This document shows positions 26,282 through 36,395 of a stretch of DNA of 64,000 nucleotides, piece after piece. The notes under the pieces were generated by a model. The model saw only the letters and a program-made list of their open reading frames with translations, did not search any database and was not told the origin of the DNA. The translations under genes were made by a program, and so were the position numbers. The first letter of the stretch is position 1; every line of letters starts with the position of its first letter. The DNA lies in the NCBI RefSeq assembly GCF_001049755.1, contig NZ_CVLB01000001.1, forward strand, positions 1,506,995 through 1,570,994, written 5' to 3'. Source of the stretch: Brachyspira suanatina. Its GTDB lineage: Bacteria > Spirochaetota > Brachyspiria > Brachyspirales > Brachyspiraceae.

Positions 26282-27994
26282 TTATTTTTCAAGTCTAATA
26301 AGTAATTTATTTTTATTAATTTCGGAAATATTTGAATGCTTTATATTATAAATTATTCTTTGTTTTATCTTAGAAATAATGCTTATTTCATCATTCGAAT
26401 ACGACAAAATATCCAAAATACTATTTGTAATATCAATAAGGTATTCATTGGATTTTCTAGAACATAACCTGCTATAAATTTGAAGTATATATTCACCAAA
26501 ATATTTTATAAGCCTTATATCATTAGCTAGTATGGCTGCATTAATATGATAAAAATAAATCTTCAATGCATCAATATTATTATCTCTAGTATATTTATCC
26601 AAAAATATAGAAAACATTTTTATATATTCTAAACTTTTATATTTAAGTTTATCACATATTTCATCTTTATTTATTATATGAACAGAATATTTTAAATTTA
26701 ATACTATAATATCATCTTTATCATAATCAAATATTAGATTATCCTTAGAACAATCTAAAGGATTATCCATCTTTAATCTTATATTATCTATATACCTTAA
26801 TTTTTTATTAACACTGCTGTAACTTGTTTTTGAAGTATCTACTACAAATAAATATTCTATATTTTTAGTTTTATTAACTATGGATCTTTTAGCACCTCTA
26901 TATTTAGTATATTCAGAAGTAACAATATCCAATTTACCTCTGCTTTCAAGTATTGAAATTAAATCATCATACTCTATTATTCCGTCAGTAGAATAACTCA
27001 TAACTATATGCTTAGAATCTATATTATCTAATAAATTTATTAAAGTATCCTTTGCGGTTTTCTTATAACAGTACATAGACTTAGTTTTTACCCAATCTTT
27101 TCTTATTCCGCCTTTATCTGTTTTTTTACCGTTTATATATATATTTTTATTTATTGCTGGTTTATCCCATAAAGCTATTGTGTTTAGCAAATGATAATTA
27201 CTTCCATATTGATGCTGATTATATGGAGGATCTAAATATACCAAATCAAAATGCTTATCTTTATTTTTTACAACAAACTCATTAGCGTCATTCATGCTTA
27301 CATGACATTTTTGGCCATTATACAAAGGTATAGACTTTAGTGATATAGGAGCCATTATCCTATGCAATGCATCTTTATTCCTTCCTCCGAAACCTGCATG
27401 AAATGCCTTAAAAACTCCGGAAGTATTTGTATGCGTAGCAGATTCATATATAATAGAAGCTATCAAATAATAATATTCTTTTTCATTTATCACTTTATTT
27501 TTATAAAGCATTTCTATATTATGTCTTATAATATCAATTCTCTCAGCATTGTAATGAGTATAAAAAAGCCTTTCATTTATTAGATCAGGATTTTCATCAT
27601 TTGAAGGAGCATAATATTTTGATATATATCTGTCATCATCATCTATATACTTAATATTGTTAATCATATTTATTGTATTCTCTGCTCCGCCTGTATGAAC
27701 AAACATATTATTTAAATCTTCTTCATTAATACATAAATGAGCATAGTTTAAAATATAAGAATAATATTCCCAATCATTAGAATAAACTTCTAAGTCCAAA
27801 GTTTTCAAAAGTCTTGAAACACTGCCGCTTCCTGCAAACAGATCTAATGCTGTTTTTATATTGCTGTCTTCTTCCAAAATTCCAGAAATGGTATTTTCTA
27901 TAAAAGAAAGCAGTCTTCTTTTATTTCCAATATATGCTATTAAATTTTCTTTTAGATATTTATCTTTAATATTCGCTTCAGTATTAGTTATCAT
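26282..27994 (-). CDS. Orphan D12-class adenine-N6 DNA methyltransferase with a C-terminal helical extension
   Basis: About 570 residues. The N-terminal ~410 form a D12-class (Dam-like) N6-adenine methyltransferase: 'LIAYIGNKRRLLSFIE' (18-33), SAM-binding 'DLFAGSGSVS' (51-60) and catalytic DPPY (255-258, followed by NQHQYGSNYH). The last ~160 residues are mostly helical and match no methylase domain I know. No restriction endonuclease or specificity gene is nearby, so it is either solitary or its partner is elsewhere. The frame extends to an ATG at 28036; I chose 27994 because the earlier ATG lacks a ribosome site and a TTGATA-17-TAATAT pair lies just upstream. It follows the ROK gene on the same strand. 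Confidence 0.82.
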   Translation of the reverse strand: MITNTEANIKDKYLKENLIAYIGNKRRLLSFIENTISGILEEDSNIKTALDLFAGSGSVSRLLKTLDLEVYSNDWEYYSYILNYAHLCINEEDLNNMFVHTGGAENTINMINNIKYIDDDDRYISKYYAPSNDENPDLINERLFYTHYNAERIDIIRHNIEMLYKNKVINEKEYYYLIASIIYESATHTNTSGVFKAFHAGFGGRNKDALHRIMAPISLKSIPLYNGQKCHVSMNDANEFVVKNKDKHFDLVYLDPPYNQHQYGSNYHLLNTIALWDKPAINKNIYINGKKTDKGGIRKDWVKTKSMYCYKKTAKDTLINLLDNIDSKHIVMSYSTDGIIEYDDLISILESRGKLDIVTSEYTKYRGAKRSIVNKTKNIEYLFVVDTSKTSYSSVNKKLRYIDNIRLKMDNPLDCSKDNLIFDYDKDDIIVLNLKYSVHIINKDEICDKLKYKSLEYIKMFSIFLDKYTRDNNIDALKIYFYHINAAILANDIRLIKYFGEYILQIYSRLCSRKSNEYLIDITNSILDILSYSNDEISIISKIKQRIIYNIKHSNISEINKNKLLIRLEK

Positions 27995-28073
27995 AATCTT
28001 ATTATCATAATATAGTTTACATAATAATATTAACATAATACTAAGAAAATATCAATATTGTATAAAAAATATA

Positions 28074-29267
28074 TTACTTAGATAAATATTTATAAAGACT
28101 ATAATTATAAAAATCATATATAGCTACAGAAGCAGCTGCATATATTTCTATATCTTTAAAATTATTAATAAAGTTGATTTCTGTAAGAAAGTTATAAGAA
28201 TTATATTTATTATTAATATTATTTTTTATTTCATTAATAAAATCTTCACCCAAATAAAGCATTTCTCCACCTATAAATATTGTTTCAGGGTCAAAAGTAT
28301 TAACTATATTATATATTCCTATTGAAACCCAATAAGCTGAAAAATTTTTATAAGTTTCAATTACAATATCATCGTCTATATGATTTTTAATAATTTCTTC
28401 ATAACTTAAATTCTTATATTTGCTATTTTTACTTTGAAGTTCTTTCATAAATGCATTTATGCTAGCAACAGATTCCCAGCATCCTTTTTTACCGCACATA
28501 CAAATATAGTCTGAATCAGTTACTATAGTATGCGAATAGTTAGCAGCTGTATCATGTGTTCCATATAAAATTGAACCATTATTAGAAACAGATACTCCAA
28601 TCCAATTACCCAAATAAATATATACAGATGAAGTTTGTATTGGCATATACTTTTTCATCTCTTCAAGCATACCATATGTAAGCATAGCACATGCATATCT
28701 ATCAATTATAACATCAATACCAGTATTTTGTTCTATATATTCTTTTAATGGTATATTTCTCCATTCAGGTATCCCCATACAATCTACAAGCATATTATTA
28801 TTTTGTTTACTTATTTTACCAGGTACTGACATCCCTATGGCAAATATTTTTTTATTTTTATGTTTATTTTTTAATTCTTTAATTTTTTTGATTATTGGAT
28901 TGAATGTTATTTTATAATCATCATTTATATTTACATTTAATGAACATTGTTCTATTATTTCATTTTCTAAATTAACTATAGCTACATTGCATAGTTCTCT
29001 TCTAAAATGTACAGCTAGAAAATATCCTATGTTCTTATTTATATCTAATAATATAGGTTTTTTACCTCCAAGAGAAGATGATTCTCCGTCACACTTTTCA
29101 TATACTATACCCATATTAATTAAATCATCTACTAGTACAGATATACTTGCTTTGCTTAATTCTAAATTATAAGCTAAATCAGCTCTTGAATAATTTCCTA
29201 TTTTTAATAGCTTTACTATATCAATATAATTTTGTTCTTTTAAATTTTTTGCTTTTAATCTTTTCAT
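28074..29267 (-). CDS. ROK-family transcriptional repressor (NagC/XylR type)
   Basis: 397 residues. An N-terminal winged helix (about 14-75: 'IGNYSRADLAYNLELSKASISVLVDDLINMGIV', then the wing 'SSLGGKKPILL') precedes a ROK sugar-binding domain. That domain has 'AIGMSVPGKI' (143-152), a His at 246 and the zinc motif CMCGKKGC (256-263). The catalytic Asn-Asp of sugar kinases reads Asp189-Arg190, so it should be a regulator, not a kinase. It stands immediately downstream of the ABC transport operon, separated by a terminator. It is the obvious candidate to bind the palindrome at 36365-36381. The inducer is probably a sugar. Confidence 0.87.
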   Translation of the reverse strand: MKRLKAKNLKEQNYIDIVKLLKIGNYSRADLAYNLELSKASISVLVDDLINMGIVYEKCDGESSSLGGKKPILLDINKNIGYFLAVHFRRELCNVAIVNLENEIIEQCSLNVNINDDYKITFNPIIKKIKELKNKHKNKKIFAIGMSVPGKISKQNNNMLVDCMGIPEWRNIPLKEYIEQNTGIDVIIDRYACAMLTYGMLEEMKKYMPIQTSSVYIYLGNWIGVSVSNNGSILYGTHDTAANYSHTIVTDSDYICMCGKKGCWESVASINAFMKELQSKNSKYKNLSYEEIIKNHIDDDIVIETYKNFSAYWVSIGIYNIVNTFDPETIFIGGEMLYLGEDFINEIKNNINNKYNSYNFLTEINFINNFKDIEIYAAASVAIYDFYNYSLYKYLSK

Positions 29268-29301
29268 CTCTTATCTTTATAAGTTATTTTATAATAGAAT
29301 T

Positions 29302-29336
29302 AAAAAAAGCGATGCATATTGTATTATACACCGCTT
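29302..29336 (-). terminator. Terminator of the ABC transport operon
   Basis: On the minus strand a 12-bp stem with G-U pairs (29336-29325 with 29318-29307) is followed by a run of T (the complement of 29302-29308). It lies between the operon's last gene and the ROK gene. Confidence 0.8.
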
Positions 29337-29358
29337 ATAAATTCAATATAAAAATAAT

Positions 29359-30366
29359 TTATTCACTTAATACATTATCAACCATATACTTTATCTGTAC
29401 ATAATTATTAATATCTACATTATTTGTAATGGTCTTAGTATAAATAAATATATTTTGCTGTGTTTTATACCATTTAGAAGCATCTCCATTAGTATATGCT
29501 TTTTTTATATCATCTCCAGAAAGCCATACTGCTGTTTCTCTTTCTAAATCAACTTCTTCAGTTGTTTTATTATTCATATCAGAAACCAATTTTACAGTTT
29601 CACTCATATTAAGCTGTCTATAATCCATAGCTTTAAGTATAGCTCTTGAAAATCTCTTGACTATCTCAGCATTGCTATTTTGATAGGAAGGTGTAACTAT
29701 CCAACTGCTGGGAAAAGATCCAACATCAGAATAATCAACAGTTGTTGCAATAGATTTTACTTCATTTCCAAGAGTATTTAATATCTCAAAAGTATAAGGA
29801 GCTTGTACAGAACCGGCATCAATACTACCATCTATCATAGATTCCACTATTGTATTTCCATCCATATTTATAATATCTACCTCATTTGTTTTAATACCCA
29901 ATGACTGAAGAGCTAAATATAGTAAAATTTCTGAAGAAGTTCCTAATTGAGTACCAATTTTTTTACCTCTTAAATCTTTAACTGATTCTATTTGAGATGA
30001 ATTTCTTACTATAATTTGTTCAGATTTACTTAAACCATTAGGAAACAATACATTAACTTTTCCTTCAATAGCTAATGAATGTGCCCCATGTCCTATATAA
30101 GCAAAATCTAAATTTTTCAAAATCATCTCTTCAACTTCAGAAGGACCATCTAAAAACTCTATTAATTCAACATCTAAATTTTCTTCATCAAAATATCCTT
30201 TTTCTTTTGCTATAGCTACAGCAGATGATCCAGAAAAATCAGGCATATATCCAACTCTTACTGGATATATCTTTTTAGCTGCAGTATCTTCTACTTTTTC
30301 AATTTTTTCTTCACATGATACAAATAGTATCATAATAAATAATAATATAATGTTCTTTTTATTCAT
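29359..30366 (-). CDS. ABC solute-binding lipoprotein, NMT1/SsuA-like (copy 1 of 3)
   Basis: About 335 residues. Signal peptide with lipobox FVSC, then a type 2 periplasmic-binding fold of the NMT1/SsuA/TauA class: 'VRVGYMPDFSGSSAVAIAKEKGYFDEENLDVELIEF', 'FAYIGHGAHSLAIEGKV', 'LRGKKIGTQLGTSSE', 'SSWIVTP'. It is very close to copy 2 along its whole length. The frame opens at a GTG (30378), but AGGTGG sits eight bases before the ATG at 30366, which I take as the start. It is the last gene of the operon. Substrate is unknown. Confidence 0.88.
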   Translation of the reverse strand: MNKKNIILLFIMILFVSCEEKIEKVEDTAAKKIYPVRVGYMPDFSGSSAVAIAKEKGYFDEENLDVELIEFLDGPSEVEEMILKNLDFAYIGHGAHSLAIEGKVNVLFPNGLSKSEQIIVRNSSQIESVKDLRGKKIGTQLGTSSEILLYLALQSLGIKTNEVDIINMDGNTIVESMIDGSIDAGSVQAPYTFEILNTLGNEVKSIATTVDYSDVGSFPSSWIVTPSYQNSNAEIVKRFSRAILKAMDYRQLNMSETVKLVSDMNNKTTEEVDLERETAVWLSGDDIKKAYTNGDASKWYKTQQNIFIYTKTITNNVDINNYVQIKYMVDNVLSE

Positions 30367-30379
30367 ATTACAGACCACC

Positions 30380-30423
30380 TTATAATTAATAAAATTATTT
30401 TATATATTTTTTATTAATTATAA
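30380..30423 (-). repeat. Intercistronic AT-rich inverted repeat between binding-protein genes 2 and 1
   Basis: A perfect 15-bp inverted repeat (30380-30394 with 30409-30423, 14-base loop) ends right at the ribosome site of copy 1. It could stabilise upstream mRNA or damp translation of the last gene. Confidence 0.55.
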
Positions 30424-30457
30424 AAAATTTCAATATGAAAATATGAAAAATATTTTT

Positions 30458-31471
30458 TTATTTTAGAACATTTTCAATTATATAATTTATTTGTACATAG
30501 TTATTAACATCTACTACTTCAGTAACAACTTCTGAGTTTAAGAATATTTTTTGCTGAGCTTCGTACCATTTTGCAGCTGTACCATCCATATAAGCATTCT
30601 TTATATCAGATGAATTAAGCCATATAGCGGTTTCTTTTTCTAAAGCAACAGAATCAGCAGGAGTTCCATTTAATTTAGCTACTATTTCAACTGCTTCATC
30701 CATATTATCAGTTCTATAATCCATAGCTTTAAATATGGCTTTAGAGAATCTATTAACTATATCAGAATTATTTTTTTGATAACCAGGAGTAACTATCCAA
30801 CTGCTAGGAAATACTGCTTCATCTAAATAATTTGTAATAGATGCAATTACAATAGCTTCATCTCCAAGCTGTTTACTAATTTCAAAAGTATAAGGTGCCC
30901 ATACAGAAACAGCATCTACTTTTTTACCAATCATAGAAGATACTATTCCGCTTACATCCATATTAACTACATTAACATCTTTTTTAGAAAGACCAACTTT
31001 TCTTAATGCAATATCTAATACTATATCCCCAGAAGTACCAAGCTGAGTACCTACTGTTTTTCCTTTTAATCCTGCCAAATCACTAACATTAGCCCATTTA
31101 CCAACTATAATCTGTTCAGATTTACTCAATCCATTAGGAAATAATACATTAACTTTACCTTGAATAGCCAATGAGTGTGCACCATGCCCTATATAGGCAA
31201 ATTGTATATCTCCTGAAAGCATAGCAGCAACTTCAGAAGGTCCATTTAAAAATTTTACCAATTCTACATCTAAATTTTCTTCTTTAAAGAAACCTTTTTC
31301 TTGAGCTATAGCAGCTGCAGAAGTTCCTGCAAAATCTGCAAGATATGCAACTCTTATTTTATCAGCTGTATCATTTGATAAAGAAACAGATTGTTTATTT
31401 TCTTTTGAACATGATATTATTAAAGAAATTAATACTATTGATAAAATAGAAACTAATATAGTTTTTTTCAT
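30458..31471 (-). CDS. ABC solute-binding lipoprotein, NMT1/SsuA-like (copy 2 of 3)
   Basis: 337 residues. Signal peptide with lipobox LIISC, then the same fold as copies 1 and 3: 'VAYLADFAGTSAAAIAQEKGFFKEENLDVELVKF', 'FAYIGHGAHSLAIQGKVNVLFPNGLSKSEQI', 'GTQLGTSGDI', 'VWAPYTFEI'. Its similarity to copy 1, including the shared 'VLFPNGLSKSEQIIV', points to a recent tandem duplication. The ribosome site AAAGGAGG is very strong, suggesting high expression. It delivers solute to the shared permease/ATPase. Confidence 0.9.
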   Translation of the reverse strand: MKKTILVSILSIVLISLIISCSKENKQSVSLSNDTADKIRVAYLADFAGTSAAAIAQEKGFFKEENLDVELVKFLNGPSEVAAMLSGDIQFAYIGHGAHSLAIQGKVNVLFPNGLSKSEQIIVGKWANVSDLAGLKGKTVGTQLGTSGDIVLDIALRKVGLSKKDVNVVNMDVSGIVSSMIGKKVDAVSVWAPYTFEISKQLGDEAIVIASITNYLDEAVFPSSWIVTPGYQKNNSDIVNRFSKAIFKAMDYRTDNMDEAVEIVAKLNGTPADSVALEKETAIWLNSSDIKNAYMDGTAAKWYEAQQKIFLNSEVVTEVVDVNNYVQINYIIENVLK

Positions 31472-31543
31472 TTTATCCTCCTTTAATTATTTTATAAAAC
31501 TTATTTGTATCAAAAAAGAATTTTTAACTAATTATAAATTTAA

Positions 31544-32491
31544 TCATCTTCTTAAAGCCATTCTTCTATATGTATGTACTTCTCCTCTCAATACCAATGA
31601 TATAGCCATAGCATTCATAGGACTTGATATTCCTCCTACTCCTGCATCACCTATATGCATTATGTCGGCACCAGACATTTTAGACATTAATGCAATTTGT
31701 TTTATTGTATCTATAGGAGCACCTTCCTGAGCAGTTCCTATAGCTGTTTTTGTAAGCATACCAAGTCTTTTAGCTTCATCTATTAATTCATGAACTTTTT
31801 CTACAGTGTATCCAGGTAAAGTTCCTGGAGCACCAAACATTATCACATCCGCACCTGCATCTGCAATTTGTTTTACAGTACCCAAAGTATCTATATTTCC
31901 TGCACCTGCTCCATGCATTTTACCAGAAATTATCATCATTTTACCCTTAGCAATAGAAGCTAATTCCTCTGTTGCTTTTGCTATAGTATCCATAGAAACT
32001 TTTGTATGAGGATTACCTGTTAATACTATATAATCAATTCCGAAATCTAATGCTCTTTTATAATTGTCTTTAGTAGCTTTCAAACCTTCAGGATAATCAA
32101 CGCCTTCTCCAACAGGTTCCAGATTAATTCCTATAAATCTTCCTGTATATTTTTTAATTCTTTGTATATGATCATTTTTCTTTCTTGAAGATTCATATAA
32201 TTTAAGCTGTCCTTTGAAAGTTCTTTCAACTAAAGGCATAGATTCATCAGCTTCAACTTCATCTAAATCATATATAAAAGGATTAAGTAAATCAAATATG
32301 TTTAATGTAATTAAATCTACTCCCATAGCTGCTAAAATTTCAGGGTCTGTAACTCTTTCTATTAATGGTCTTTTATATATTAAAGATTCGGCCATTAATG
32401 TTCTGCCTTCAGAATTCCTAATAGTTTCTATCAATGTATTAGTATCCATATTAAATGTATCAGTATAATTTAATTCAAATATCCTTTTCAT
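31544..32491 (-). CDS. TIM-barrel protein of unknown function (DUF7916-like)
   Basis: 315 residues, cytoplasmic. Repeated beta/alpha units end in Gly-rich strands ('FIGINLEPVGEG', 'YIVLTGNP', 'MIISGKMHGAGAGN', 'GADVIMFGAPGTLPGYT', 'KTAIGTAQEGA', 'GADIMHIGDAGVGG'), as in phosphate-binding TIM barrels. The opening 'FELNYTDTFNMDTNTLIETIRNSEGRTLMAESL' resembles a family often found next to sugar-transport genes (DUF7916, from memory). Being inside the transport operon, 14 bases after the ATPase gene, it is probably a catabolic enzyme for the imported compound. No specific reaction can be given. Confidence 0.65.
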   Translation of the reverse strand: MKRIFELNYTDTFNMDTNTLIETIRNSEGRTLMAESLIYKRPLIERVTDPEILAAMGVDLITLNIFDLLNPFIYDLDEVEADESMPLVERTFKGQLKLYESSRKKNDHIQRIKKYTGRFIGINLEPVGEGVDYPEGLKATKDNYKRALDFGIDYIVLTGNPHTKVSMDTIAKATEELASIAKGKMMIISGKMHGAGAGNIDTLGTVKQIADAGADVIMFGAPGTLPGYTVEKVHELIDEAKRLGMLTKTAIGTAQEGAPIDTIKQIALMSKMSGADIMHIGDAGVGGISSPMNAMAISLVLRGEVHTYRRMALRR

Positions 32492-32505
32492 TTTAGCCTG
32501 CTCCT

Positions 32506-33291
32506 CTATTTTTTAGCTTCTAAATATTCCTGATATACTAATTGCCATAATTGATTTTTAATATCATTAAATTCAGCAGATAATTTAGTTTCTGGTACTC
32601 TAGGATATCCAATAGGTACTTCAACTATACTTTTTATTCTTCCTGGTCTTGGACTCATTATAACAACTCTTTGAGCCAAAAATACAGCTTCATCTACATC
32701 ATGGGTAATAAAGAAACAAGTTTTCTTTTCATTATCCCAAGTATTTAAAAGCTCTGTTTGTAATTGCGCTCTTGTCTGTGCATCCAAAGCTCCGAAAGGC
32801 TCATCCATAAGAAGTATATTAGGATTAACAGCATAAGCTCTGGCTATAGCTACACGCTGCTTCATACCTCCTGAAAGTTCCTTAGGATATGCATTTTTAA
32901 AATCTATCAAACCAACAGCTTTAAGATAATGGTCAACTATATCATTGATTTCAGATTTAGATTTTTTCTGCAATTCCAAACCAAAGGCAACATTCTTTGC
33001 AACAGTAAGCCAAGGAAATAAAGCATACTGCTGAAATACTACACCTCTGTCAACTCCTGTACCTTCTATAGGTTTTCCGTCTATTTCTATACTTCCTGAA
33101 TTTGGTGTATCAAGACCTGCAAGTATATTAAGCAATGTACTTTTTCCGCATCCTGAAGAACCTATTACACATACAAACTCATTTTTATATATATCTAAAT
33201 TTACATTATCTAAAGCATGAATATCTTTAGTTGTACCTTTATATATTTTACTGACATTAGAAATTTTTACTTTTACTTCTTTATTTGACAT
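32506..33291 (-). CDS. ABC transporter ATPase, SsuB/TauB-like
   Basis: 261 residues. Walker A 'GSSGCGKSTLL', 'VFQQYALFPWLTVAKNVAFGLEL' (Q-loop with the FPWLT stretch typical of the nitrate/sulfonate/taurine class), LSGGMKQR, Walker B 'LLMDEPFGALD' and the 'FITHDVDEAVFLAQRVVIMSPRPGRI' tail are all present. It energises uptake with the permease encoded 49 bases upstream. As the only ATPase of the operon it must serve all three binding proteins. Confidence 0.93.
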   Translation of the reverse strand: MSNKEVKVKISNVSKIYKGTTKDIHALDNVNLDIYKNEFVCVIGSSGCGKSTLLNILAGLDTPNSGSIEIDGKPIEGTGVDRGVVFQQYALFPWLTVAKNVAFGLELQKKSKSEINDIVDHYLKAVGLIDFKNAYPKELSGGMKQRVAIARAYAVNPNILLMDEPFGALDAQTRAQLQTELLNTWDNEKKTCFFITHDVDEAVFLAQRVVIMSPRPGRIKSIVEVPIGYPRVPETKLSAEFNDIKNQLWQLVYQEYLEAKK

Positions 33292-33340
33292 ATTATAATC
33301 TCTTTTTATATAATTTTTTTACTATATAACTTTTTAATTA

Positions 33341-34111
33341 TTATCTTTTTTTCTTTTCCTGCCATACAGTTAACTTGTTTTCTATTAAACTTACTATAAA
33401 ATTTAGTATTAAACCTGTAATACCAATAAGTATTATTCCAAGCATAACTATATCCATTCTAAAGTAAAGACTTGCTTCCTGAATCATCTGTCCTAATCCT
33501 GAACTAGATCCTGTTAATTCAGCAGCAATAAGAGTTGTAAGAGAAGCACCTAATCCTAAACGCATACCAACTAATATATATGGAACTGAAGCGGGTATTA
33601 CAACTTTTAAGAAAATATCTTTATCTTTTGCTCCAAGAACTCTAGCAGCTTTTATTAAAGTTTGATCAACCTCTCTTACGCCTTGATAAACTGTTACAAT
33701 CATTACTAAGAAAGTAGATATAAATATAACTGTTATTTTAGCACTTTCTCCAACTCCCTGTGCAACTACAACCAAAGGTATATATGCTAAAGCAGGTATA
33801 TTCCTCACAAATTGTATTACAGGTTCTATTAATAATTGAACAGGCTGATACCACCCCATTAAAAATGCTATAGGTATTGATATAATAAAAGCTAATCCGA
33901 AACCGGACAATACTCTAAACAAACTTATACCTATATGATTTAACAATTTACCATTGCTAATCTCTCTCACAAATGATTTTAATACATCAGCAGGACTTGC
34001 AATAACTGCCCCTGCTACAGAAGAAGATACTAACTGCCATATTAATAAAGCTATAATAATAGAAGCAGCGGTAAATATATATTTCTTTTTACCCATAGGT
34101 TTACTATTCAT
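33341..34111 (-). CDS. ABC transporter permease, SsuC/TauC-like
   Basis: 256 residues with about six transmembrane helices. The EAA loop is visible as 'EVDQTLIKAARVLGAKDKDIFLKVVIPASVPYILVGMRLGLG', and 'RNIPALAYIPLVVVAQGVGESAKI' is characteristic of the nitrate/sulfonate/taurine permease class. AGGAATAACC precedes the ATG. It lies downstream of copy 3 of the binding protein, separated by 119 bases that hold a hairpin. Confidence 0.93.
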   Translation of the reverse strand: MNSKPMGKKKYIFTAASIIIALLIWQLVSSSVAGAVIASPADVLKSFVREISNGKLLNHIGISLFRVLSGFGLAFIISIPIAFLMGWYQPVQLLIEPVIQFVRNIPALAYIPLVVVAQGVGESAKITVIFISTFLVMIVTVYQGVREVDQTLIKAARVLGAKDKDIFLKVVIPASVPYILVGMRLGLGASLTTLIAAELTGSSSGLGQMIQEASLYFRMDIVMLGIILIGITGLILNFIVSLIENKLTVWQEKKKR

Positions 34112-34179
34112 GGTTATTCCTCTTAATATTTAATAAAAAGTATAGCATATACAAAAAATAAATTTATTAAATTTAATAG

Positions 34180-34215
34180 TTTATAGTTAAAACAAATATA
34201 TATTTTAACTATAAA
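34180..34215 (-). repeat. Intercistronic hairpin between the first binding-protein gene and the permease gene
   Basis: A perfect 13-bp AT-only-plus-C/G inverted repeat (34180-34192 with 34203-34215), followed on the minus strand by a T-rich stretch ending in TTTATTTTTTG. It may partly terminate or stabilise the transcript so that the binding protein is made in excess of the permease. Confidence 0.6.
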
Positions 34216-34230
34216 CTTTATAATTAATTA

Positions 34231-35214
34231 TTAATTTAATGCTTGTTCTATAATATCAATTCTAACATATTTATCTACAGGAACAGGATCAGAATTTAAT
34301 CTATTATTTTGTACAAAATATTCTATTTGTTTTTTGTAAATATTACTTATACTTCCGTCACTTATTCTGCTTTTCATTGTTTGAGAATCCATCCAATCAG
34401 AACTGTATTTCTCTTGTGAAACTGTAGCTATATCTAAACCAATAAGATTTGATACATTTGTAATAGCTTCATCTAAATTTTGTTTTCTATAATCCATTGA
34501 TTTATATAATGCTCTTGTGAATTTTATAACTGTATCAGTATTAGCTTCCAAATAGTCAGGAGTTACTATCCAGCTTGCAGTAGAATCAACACCTACATCC
34601 TGAGGTTTTATAATATATAAATTCTCTATACCAATTCTATTATCTATTTCAACAGTATAAGGAGGCCATACAGATATAGCATCAACTTTATTAGCCAAGA
34701 AAGATGCAACAGCACTTGAAACTTCAGCATTAAGTATATTTATATCTGTTTTATTGACACCTGTTCCAGCCAATACCTGATCTATAATAGTTTCTCCTGA
34801 TGTACCCAATTGTGTTATTAAACTTCTTCCTTTTAATTTTTCAACTGAATTGATACCTGAAGTTTTTAATGTTCTAATACCTTCTACAACGGCTATACCG
34901 TCAGTAGCTATTATTTGAACTTTTCCTTCAGCTGCCAATGTATGTGCTCCGAAACCTATATAACCTATTTGTATATCTCCTGAAACCATAGCTGCTATTT
35001 CTGTAGGTCCGCTTGTAAATTTAACAAGTTCTATATCTAAACCTTCATCTTTGAAATAATTCTGCTGTATACCAGTAATAATTGCAGAAGCTCCGCCTAC
35101 ATTTGGGTGATATGCTACTCTTATTTTACCTGTATTTTCATTAGTTTTTTTACCGCATGATATTAAAAAAGTAAATAACAAAATAAATGTTATAGCTAAT
35201 AATGCTTTTTTCAT
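34231..35214 (-). CDS. ABC solute-binding lipoprotein, NMT1/SsuA-like (copy 3 of 3)
   Basis: 327 residues. Signal peptide with lipobox FLISC. The fold and motifs match copies 1 and 2 ('VAYHPNVGGASAIITGIQQNYFKDEGLDIELVKF', 'GYIGFGAHTLAAEGKV', 'ITQLGTSGETI', 'SVWPPYTVEI', 'ASWIVTP'), but it is clearly more diverged. It lies directly downstream of the sialidase-like gene and upstream of the permease, the position expected of the original receptor; copies 1 and 2 look like later additions. TGGAG precedes the ATG. Confidence 0.9.
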   Translation of the reverse strand: MKKALLAITFILLFTFLISCGKKTNENTGKIRVAYHPNVGGASAIITGIQQNYFKDEGLDIELVKFTSGPTEIAAMVSGDIQIGYIGFGAHTLAAEGKVQIIATDGIAVVEGIRTLKTSGINSVEKLKGRSLITQLGTSGETIIDQVLAGTGVNKTDINILNAEVSSAVASFLANKVDAISVWPPYTVEIDNRIGIENLYIIKPQDVGVDSTASWIVTPDYLEANTDTVIKFTRALYKSMDYRKQNLDEAITNVSNLIGLDIATVSQEKYSSDWMDSQTMKSRISDGSISNIYKKQIEYFVQNNRLNSDPVPVDKYVRIDIIEQALN

Positions 35215-35242
35215 AATTTTACTCCATTATAAATAATAATTA

Positions 35243-36331
35243 TTATCTTAATATATCTTCTATTTCAGAATTAGTCAAAAAATTCATAACTAAAGGCTGA
35301 GATTTATTATCCTGAGACTGCTGCCAAGTAGCATACATACCATCTTTAGTTCTTAATACATCTACATACCTTGAACAGCCTGTACCATAAGGGCTTATAA
35401 ATAATGGTAATTCTTTACTTATTCTTTCAATATGTGAGAACGATCCGTTTTCTATATATGCCACTCCGCCTAATTCTTCGCATGAATATCCTCTAGGTCT
35501 TTTTACAGCTTTTTCATGCTCATCTAAATTTCTGACACATTCTCCGCCGTCATAGAAGAATAAGCTTATTCTTTTATTTTTTAGTACTCCAACCTGAGGC
35601 ATATCAATAACGCAAGTTCCTCTAGTCATAGCAATATCCCAAGTATGACCTTTTTCAAAGAAATAAAATACAGGTGCTTCAAAATTGAGTTTCTCACCTC
35701 TTCTTATCATATATCCTGTATTTGAACTAGTCCAGTTATAAGGATGTGTACAGAACATTAAATATTTTTCACCATTATAACTATCATATACAAAAGGGTC
35801 TTTCAAATGAATAAATCTTGAATCTTCGCCTTTAATAAGTTCCTGAACATTAGAAACACTTAAATTTTCTATTTTATCAGCTACTATAACATCAATATCC
35901 CATACACCAGTTCCAGGTTTTAAATATTCCTTAAGATGATCAGGATATTTATTTTCAGATTTCTCTGAAGATATATAAAGTTCTACCTCGTTATCTTTAT
36001 TAAATCTTAAAGCAGTACCTTCTATAGATAAAACACCTCTAGGAAGTTCTTTTTTTAATATACTTTTTATTTTTTTCCAAGTATTTCCTTTATCTGAAGA
36101 TTTAAATATTGCTAATTCAGCTCCCCTATCTCCTAAATCCAAACCTGTTCTTGAATCTCCGGAATTTCTGTATCTTCCTGAAATATACAAATTACCTTCT
36201 TTATCTTCTATCATATTTCCGCCGCCGAACCAATATCCTGTTTCCGGTGTTACAGGTACTATAATTTTAGCTTTTTTTTCATCTATCAATCTAAGAGAGA
36301 ATTCCATTAACTTTTTTTCTAAATTTGTCAT
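35243..36331 (-). CDS. Cytoplasmic sialidase-like beta-propeller protein
   Basis: 362 residues, no signal peptide. One clear Asp box (SSDKGNTW, 78-85) and repeated propeller strands ('WFGGGNMIEDKEGNLYISGRYRN', 'LKDPFVYDSYNGEKYLMF', 'YGTGCSRYVDVLRTKDGMYATW') suggest a sialidase-like or GH43-like propeller. I cannot identify a complete catalytic set, so hydrolase activity is inferred. It is the first gene of the operon, behind a promoter with a ROK-type operator. It therefore probably acts on the compound the transporter brings in, perhaps a host or dietary glycan fragment. Confidence 0.72.
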   Translation of the reverse strand: MTNLEKKLMEFSLRLIDEKKAKIIVPVTPETGYWFGGGNMIEDKEGNLYISGRYRNSGDSRTGLDLGDRGAELAIFKSSDKGNTWKKIKSILKKELPRGVLSIEGTALRFNKDNEVELYISSEKSENKYPDHLKEYLKPGTGVWDIDVIVADKIENLSVSNVQELIKGEDSRFIHLKDPFVYDSYNGEKYLMFCTHPYNWTSSNTGYMIRRGEKLNFEAPVFYFFEKGHTWDIAMTRGTCVIDMPQVGVLKNKRISLFFYDGGECVRNLDEHEKAVKRPRGYSCEELGGVAYIENGSFSHIERISKELPLFISPYGTGCSRYVDVLRTKDGMYATWQQSQDNKSQPLVMNFLTNSEIEDILR

Positions 36332-36364
36332 AATAATTACCTCGTATATTATTTAATATATTAA

Positions 36365-36395
36365 TTAGTATAGTAAACTAACTAACTAAAATCAA
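36365..36395 (-). promoter_or_regulatory. Promoter and ROK-type operator of the transport/sialidase-like operon
   Basis: On the minus strand TTGATT (36395-36390), a 17-base spacer and TATACT (36372-36367) form a good sigma-70 promoter. A 17-bp near-palindrome, TTAGTTTACTATACTAA on the minus strand (36381-36365), covers the -10 and part of the spacer. Its TTAGTTT...ACTAA form resembles XylR/NagC-family operators. A repressor bound there would block the polymerase. Confidence 0.7.

Follow-up and report, generated by a model that had tools for sequence, protein, structure and literature searches.

A conserved Brachyspira operon joins an SsuABC-like importer to a predicted carbohydrate-active propeller and may serve the uptake of a sulfated sugar

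The 64,000-nucleotide stretch of Brachyspira suanatina analysed here (the window; contig NZ_CVLB01000001.1, positions 1,506,995 to 1,570,994, in a genome of 3.26 Mb) holds a gene island at positions 28074–36331, in which the parts of an SsuABC-like ATP-binding cassette (ABC) importer lie together with two putative enzymes and a regulator of the ROK family. We put at about 0.5 the probability that this island is an inducible operon for the uptake and breakdown of a small, negatively charged sugar. The likeliest such substrate would be a sulfated glycoside or sulfated (amino)sugar of the sort released from host mucin. All genes are on the minus strand and are read in the order PROP (a five-bladed beta-propeller), SBP1 (a receptor lipoprotein), PERM (the permease), ATP (the ATPase), TIM (a (beta/alpha)8 barrel), SBP2 and SBP3 (two further receptors), a terminator-like hairpin, and ROK. 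A sequence-only reading had listed these genes and their coordinates, and every gene was found where it had been placed. About ten Brachyspira species have their genes in this order (the named relatives are B. hampsonii, B. innocens, B. pilosicoli, B. alvinipulli, and Brachyspira sp. G79), and the five-gene core PROP-SBP1-PERM-ATP-TIM also occurs in a Brevinema metagenome-assembled genome (MAG) and in one more Brachyspiraceae genome, where it is divided between the ends of two contigs. Because gene order is kept across these species and the core recurs in neighbouring lineages, the island is a real and coherent operon, beyond chance.

The evidence for a sulfated substrate comes mainly from the transporter. 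A single permease (PERM, 33341–34111; PF00528, BPD_transp_1, E 8.7e-28) and a single ATPase (ATP, 32506–33291; PF00005, ABC_tran, E 1.3e-35) go with three homologous receptors, as the sequence-only reading had proposed. Their nearest relatives were sought in annotated plasmids, so that the fourteen distinct loci read are all plasmid-borne, and 13 of them (about five by lineage) have a sulfatase in the same cluster, versus none of ten controls drawn down the similarity ranking, which mostly carry SsuD/TauD-type oxygenases. In the permease tree, the proteins of the window, of Brevinema, and of the sulfatase-linked loci form one clade apart from the controls (support 0.982), and the sole sulfatase-less relative (Bradyrhizobium 195) also falls inside it. 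The receptor tree gives the same grouping more weakly, with support of 0.957 for the node with the NEB 577 receptor and no reported support for the node uniting all. The pocket motifs NGP, YIGxGA, and GTSG are common to the window receptors and the sulfatase-linked relatives and are not found in the Tau/Ssu controls, and ATP is 55–57% identical to the ATPases of the sulfatase-linked operons. The earlier suggestion of a “sulfated glycan piece” as substrate thus gains support.

Operons that combine a ROK or LacI regulator, an SsuABC-like importer, and a cytoplasmic sulfatase occur in Arthrobacter Rue61a, Streptomyces fungicidicus, Nonomuraea, Martelella, and Rhizobiaceae plasmids, and the view that the island fits no known pathway was therefore too strong. 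They resemble it in permease clade, receptors, and ATPase. A ROK regulator adjoins the transporter in four relatives, and ROK/LacI regulators and sugar kinases are frequent among them, which bears out the idea that an SsuABC-class importer here works with sugar metabolism and is controlled by a ROK regulator. The operons differ in that theirs contain a sulfatase and often a formylglycine-generating enzyme, whereas the island has PROP, the barrel protein, and up to three receptors. In the Arthrobacter Rue61a operon, the neighbours include genes for a SIS protein, a ROK kinase (NanK/GlcNAc-kinase-like), a tagatose-6-phosphate-kinase-like protein, and a KbaY/GatY-like aldolase, and the NEB 577 operon has a gene of glycoside hydrolase (GH) family 20; together these neighbours point to sulfated hexosamines. 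Six of the linked sulfatases were read. The CxPxR motif is present in every one, and a signal peptide is clearly absent from five (the start of the Nonomuraea protein is uncertain), so that in these relatives the compound is likely imported while still sulfated. Our literature searches found no paper describing such operons, and nothing relevant on ROK regulators together with NMT1-class sugar uptake.

Brachyspira has more distantly related SsuABC-like systems of its own, and these too are linked to sulfatases. Three Brachyspira operons (L252 5799–11547, at G000:C1:1295798-1301546; L253; L254) comprise a sulfatase, a receptor, two permeases, and two ATPases, with a LacI-like neighbour in two of them, and probably encode another sulfate-ester importer. 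A further locus (L255 2550–9951, on G000:C2) has three sulfatase-like genes of about 770–790 aa in tandem.

The three receptors (SBP1, 34231–35214, E 3.7e-23; SBP2, 30458–31471, E 9.5e-23; SBP3, 29359–30378, E 3.9e-25, with a GTG start in the open reading frame (ORF) call) match PF09084 (NMT1) at E 4e-25 to 1e-22, and each has a lipobox-type Cys. Like SsuABC and TauABC, the island thus pairs NMT1-class receptors with a single SsuC-type permease and a single ATPase, and family-level matches to SsuA/TauA/NtrCD models, all below cut-offs, could suggest that it simply takes up taurine or alkanesulfonates as sulfur sources. We consider this very unlikely. In TauA, the reference residues are the sulfonate-binding Gln30, Glu106, and Asp205 (PMC6906117). 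The Gln30 position is H, L, or M in the window receptors and Gln in 0 of 22 receptors, a one-sided test given that some controls also lack Gln at that alignment position. The equivalent of Asp205 is missing while the Gly/Thr anion cradle is kept, and Glu106 corresponds to Glu in the window receptors and to Asp in the linked relatives. The island has no SsuD/TauD-type desulfonating oxygenase, which most controls have, and the permease lies outside the control clades. A taurine or sulfonate importer was rejected on these receptor residues, neighbouring genes, and permease clade.

SBP1 is the ancestral receptor, being present in the Brevinema and Brachyspiraceae MAGs, and on the evidence of these contigs SBP2, SBP3, and ROK were added within Brachyspira. 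Receptor number differs by species, with one to three in the island and orphans elsewhere. Four genomes without the island (G004, G007, G010, G012) keep a lone SBP2/3-type receptor at or near the same locus, and no permease anywhere in these genomes exceeds about 40% identity. Many Brachyspira have additional orphan NMT1-class receptors, one to three in number, beside aroA and without a permease (L202–L205, L215–L217, L219, L220). In B. pilosicoli, a short transposase-like ORF is inserted between TIM and SBP2 (L048 10021–10338).

PROP (35243–36331) is transcribed first and encodes 362 aa without a visible signal peptide. Searched on its own, its sequence matches nothing in Pfam, NCBIfam, or the PDB, and no plasmid or viral homologues were found; the family alignment (n = 48) draws on Planctomycetes, Spirochaetes, Chloroflexi, and others. 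Its AlphaFold model (pLDDT 88, pTM 0.90) has strands for five blades, and its top Foldseek matches are to GH43 (TMq up to 0.61), followed by GH93 and GH117 and, more weakly, GH33. A sister family from Chloroflexi and Planctomycetes, which aligns to PROP at 99.9% probability (hhalign), has GH130 mannobiose phosphorylase as its best PDB profile match (E 3e-5). This sister family further matches chains of GH117 and GH32 enzymes, and its match to Pfam GH32N is weak. A check on whether the propeller is unrelated to glycan enzymes accordingly came out in favour of a relationship, and fold prediction and profile matches together assign PROP to an uncharacterised clade of the GH43/32/130/117-type superfamily, as a relative of carbohydrate enzymes.

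PROP shares with these enzymes the fold, a KDP motif in the third blade, and the link through the sister family, but differs in its lack of a Pfam match, in two long loops (59–66 and 267–285) with many invariant positions yet low model confidence, and in its catalytic positions. By blade order only, the GH43 catalytic Asp (blade 1), Asp (blade 3), and Glu (blade 4) correspond to G38/N39, D178, and R237; with Gly/Asn and Arg at the base and acid positions, GH43 chemistry appears unlikely. Many Arg and Lys residues of PROP are invariant and several are common to the distant sister family, the shared residues including R53/R55, R69, E104, D147, K177-D178-P179, D232, R237, D261, and R321. Such an Arg/Lys-rich centre would suit an anionic ligand, and PROP probably acts on the imported compound. 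In keeping with this, PROP elsewhere adjoins CUT1 (L098, L108, L110, L115, L119), CUT2 (L099, L107), and Opp-type importers; the Spirochaetaceae MAG locus L098 has a ROK regulator, PROP, and an ABC importer as the island does, but the importer is of the sugar type CUT1 and not SsuABC-like.

The label “sialidase-like” given earlier to the propeller did not hold; it went back to a single Asp-box (SSDKGNTW, residues 78–85). The corresponding explanation, in which PROP would be a sialidase inside the cell, TIM a NanE-like epimerase, and the operon a system for scavenging sialic acid, could draw on this Asp-box, on GH33 among the weaker Foldseek matches, and on a weak NanE match of TIM, but we regard it as extremely unlikely: there are five blades and not six, no Pfam or PDB match of PROP to GH33 rises above noise, and the island has no NanA. 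A sialidase role for PROP was rejected on the blade count and the missing GH33/BNR sequence profile; BNR matches are weak and confined to 5 of the 48 family members.

The TIM-barrel protein noted earlier in the island is confirmed as a member of DUF7916 (TIM, 31544–32491; PF25509, E 5e-98, full length over positions 2–292 of 296). No literature on DUF7916 was found. A structural model from six sequences (pTM 0.78) returned generic barrel matches only in a fold search, and a profile of ten members matches NanE, the N-acetylmannosamine-6-phosphate epimerase, weakly (E 0.002). A Brachyspira paralogue lies with a phosphotransferase system (PTS) EIIC gene, an FGGY kinase gene, and another ROK gene. 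On an Enterococcus faecium plasmid, a DUF7916 gene sits between genes for a LacD-type aldolase and PTS IIC, with an AgaS-type protein upstream; this sugar operon is comparable to the island in its DUF7916 barrel, but it has a PTS transporter and a GntR regulator, and the identity is about 36–40%. The same plasmid operon (GntR-AgaS-LacD-PTS IIC; L142 6986–12190) has its DUF7916 protein annotated as “PEP phosphonomutase”, a name for which we saw no support. By analogy with these neighbourhoods, a sugar-phosphate role is reasonable, and TIM is probably the enzyme of a (phospho)sugar step.

Gene loss ties TIM to one of the receptors. Three genomes (G016, G017, G024) lack both SBP1 and TIM and retain PERM and ATP, and since the outgroups hold both genes, the absence is a loss. 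As PERM and ATP sit between the two places, it took two separate deletions; the joint loss probably happened once, in the clade of these three genomes, and it links TIM to the ligand of SBP1.

A block of 39 nt upstream of PROP (36357–36395, minus strand) contains the promoter TTGATT-17 nt-TATACT and has 8 + 23 contiguous identical positions in nine Brachyspira species, while its surroundings do not align. A promoter scan by itself was not striking (69 found versus 64 expected). A 17-bp near-palindrome, TTAGTTTACTATACTAA, lies at 36365–36381, overlaps the -10 box, and is self-complementary at 14 of its 16 non-centre positions. The 21-nt operator core occurs once in the genome at ≤3 mismatches (chance in the window 0.03), and at that threshold the genome scan found it neither elsewhere nor upstream of the orphan receptors. 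Sites of the ROK-family XylR have a CTTAGTTT half (PMC9104551), which makes the palindrome a plausible, putative ROK operator.

The regulator itself (ROK, 28074–29267) is separated from the rest of the island by the terminator-like hairpin (29307–29336, minus strand, a 12-pair stem and a T run) between SBP3 and ROK. It has the ROK domain (PF00480, E 3.9e-35), an N-terminal helix-turn-helix-type region, and the zinc motif CxCGxxGC, and it has no kinase motifs; the presence of a ROK regulator over the island is therefore upheld, and it would act as a repressor. The ExGH motif of ROK proteins contacts the sugar. In the alignment it reads NYSH in 8 of 8 orthologues, and the inducer may thus be something other than a plain hexose. 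In Brachyspira sp. G79, the ROK gene is split into two overlapping frames (L044 6424–7616), which may reflect a sequencing error or a disrupted repressor.

Several observations weigh against a sulfated sugar as the ligand or against the roles proposed for the enzymes. The island has no sulfatase and holds PROP and DUF7916 instead, and one genome that carries it (G017, 100% complete) has no PF00884 match anywhere; a classical sulfatase is thus not required there, and either PROP does the job of the sulfatase or the ligand is not sulfated. Many of the 13 sulfatase-linked relatives are rhizobial and non-independent, and the sugar-contact Glu of ROK is replaced. In Planctomycetes, PROP mostly stands alone, without a consistent partner among its neighbours. 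Of 59 loci there, 11 have a sulfatase on the same strand no more than 400 bp away, but this association is weak, as it comes from about five independent lineages in sulfatase-rich genomes. Finally, PROP heads a PfkB-PsuG operon in one Spirochaetota lineage.

The last of these could indicate a route for a modified nucleoside or pyrimidine (pseudouridine, hydroxymethylpyrimidine, or related), as for NMT1/THI5 relatives. In a Spirochaetales MAG, the genes after PROP encode PfkB (with pseudouridine kinase as its best NCBIfam model), PsuG (PF04227, E 2.6e-133), and EamA (L083 2847–6924), in L076 it precedes a PfkB gene, and PsuG is found elsewhere in most Brachyspira genomes. This linkage, however, is confined to one related lineage, the Brachyspira PsuG is unlinked and present with and without PROP, which makes co-occurrence uninformative, a search for a thiamine pyrophosphate riboswitch found none, and the receptors are closest to sulfatase-linked ones. 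We therefore consider a nucleoside route quite unlikely, and a thiamine or pyrimidine ligand is disfavoured.

The same architecture might also serve an anionic sugar that is not sulfated (a uronate, or a phosphorylated or carboxylated glycoside), with PROP as a GH130-like phosphorylase or hydrolase. The GH130 match of the sister family, an Arg/Lys-rich centre that would equally suit phosphate or carboxylate, and an island in G017 that runs without any sulfatase are consistent with it, but the transporter and receptors belong to the sulfatase-linked group, and we see it as possible though unlikely. A bolder proposal sees in PROP a novel kind of carbohydrate-active propeller, one that would process sulfated sugars in the cell in place of a formylglycine sulfatase and so let a sulfated host sugar be used without a classical sulfatase, as G017 would allow; we rate it as unlikely.

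Taking a sulfated or otherwise anionic mucin sugar as the substrate, receptor lipoproteins of the SsuABC-like subclass would capture it, and the one permease and one ATPase would bring it into the cell with its charge retained. Cytoplasmic PROP, with its Arg/Lys-rich centre, would then act on it in the role held by the cytoplasmic sulfatase in related operons, and the DUF7916 barrel would convert the SBP1 ligand further, in a reaction of isomerase, epimerase, or aldolase type. ROK would bind the palindrome over the -10 box, repress the promoter, and be released upon binding a pathway compound. Next to the island lies a gene for a 584-aa D12-class adenine methyltransferase (window positions 26282–28036), which is conserved in several species.

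Our analysis indicates that there is a subclass of SsuABC-like importers, so far uncharacterised, that probably handles sulfated sugars. In Actinobacteria, Rhizobiales, and spirochetes, its members now carry the annotation “aliphatic sulfonate” transporter. The analysis also offers a concrete substrate hypothesis for two enzyme families of no known function, the PROP clade and DUF7916. If this is true, many database names would need correction, and the island would suggest how colon-dwelling Brachyspira could use the sulfated sugars of host mucin.

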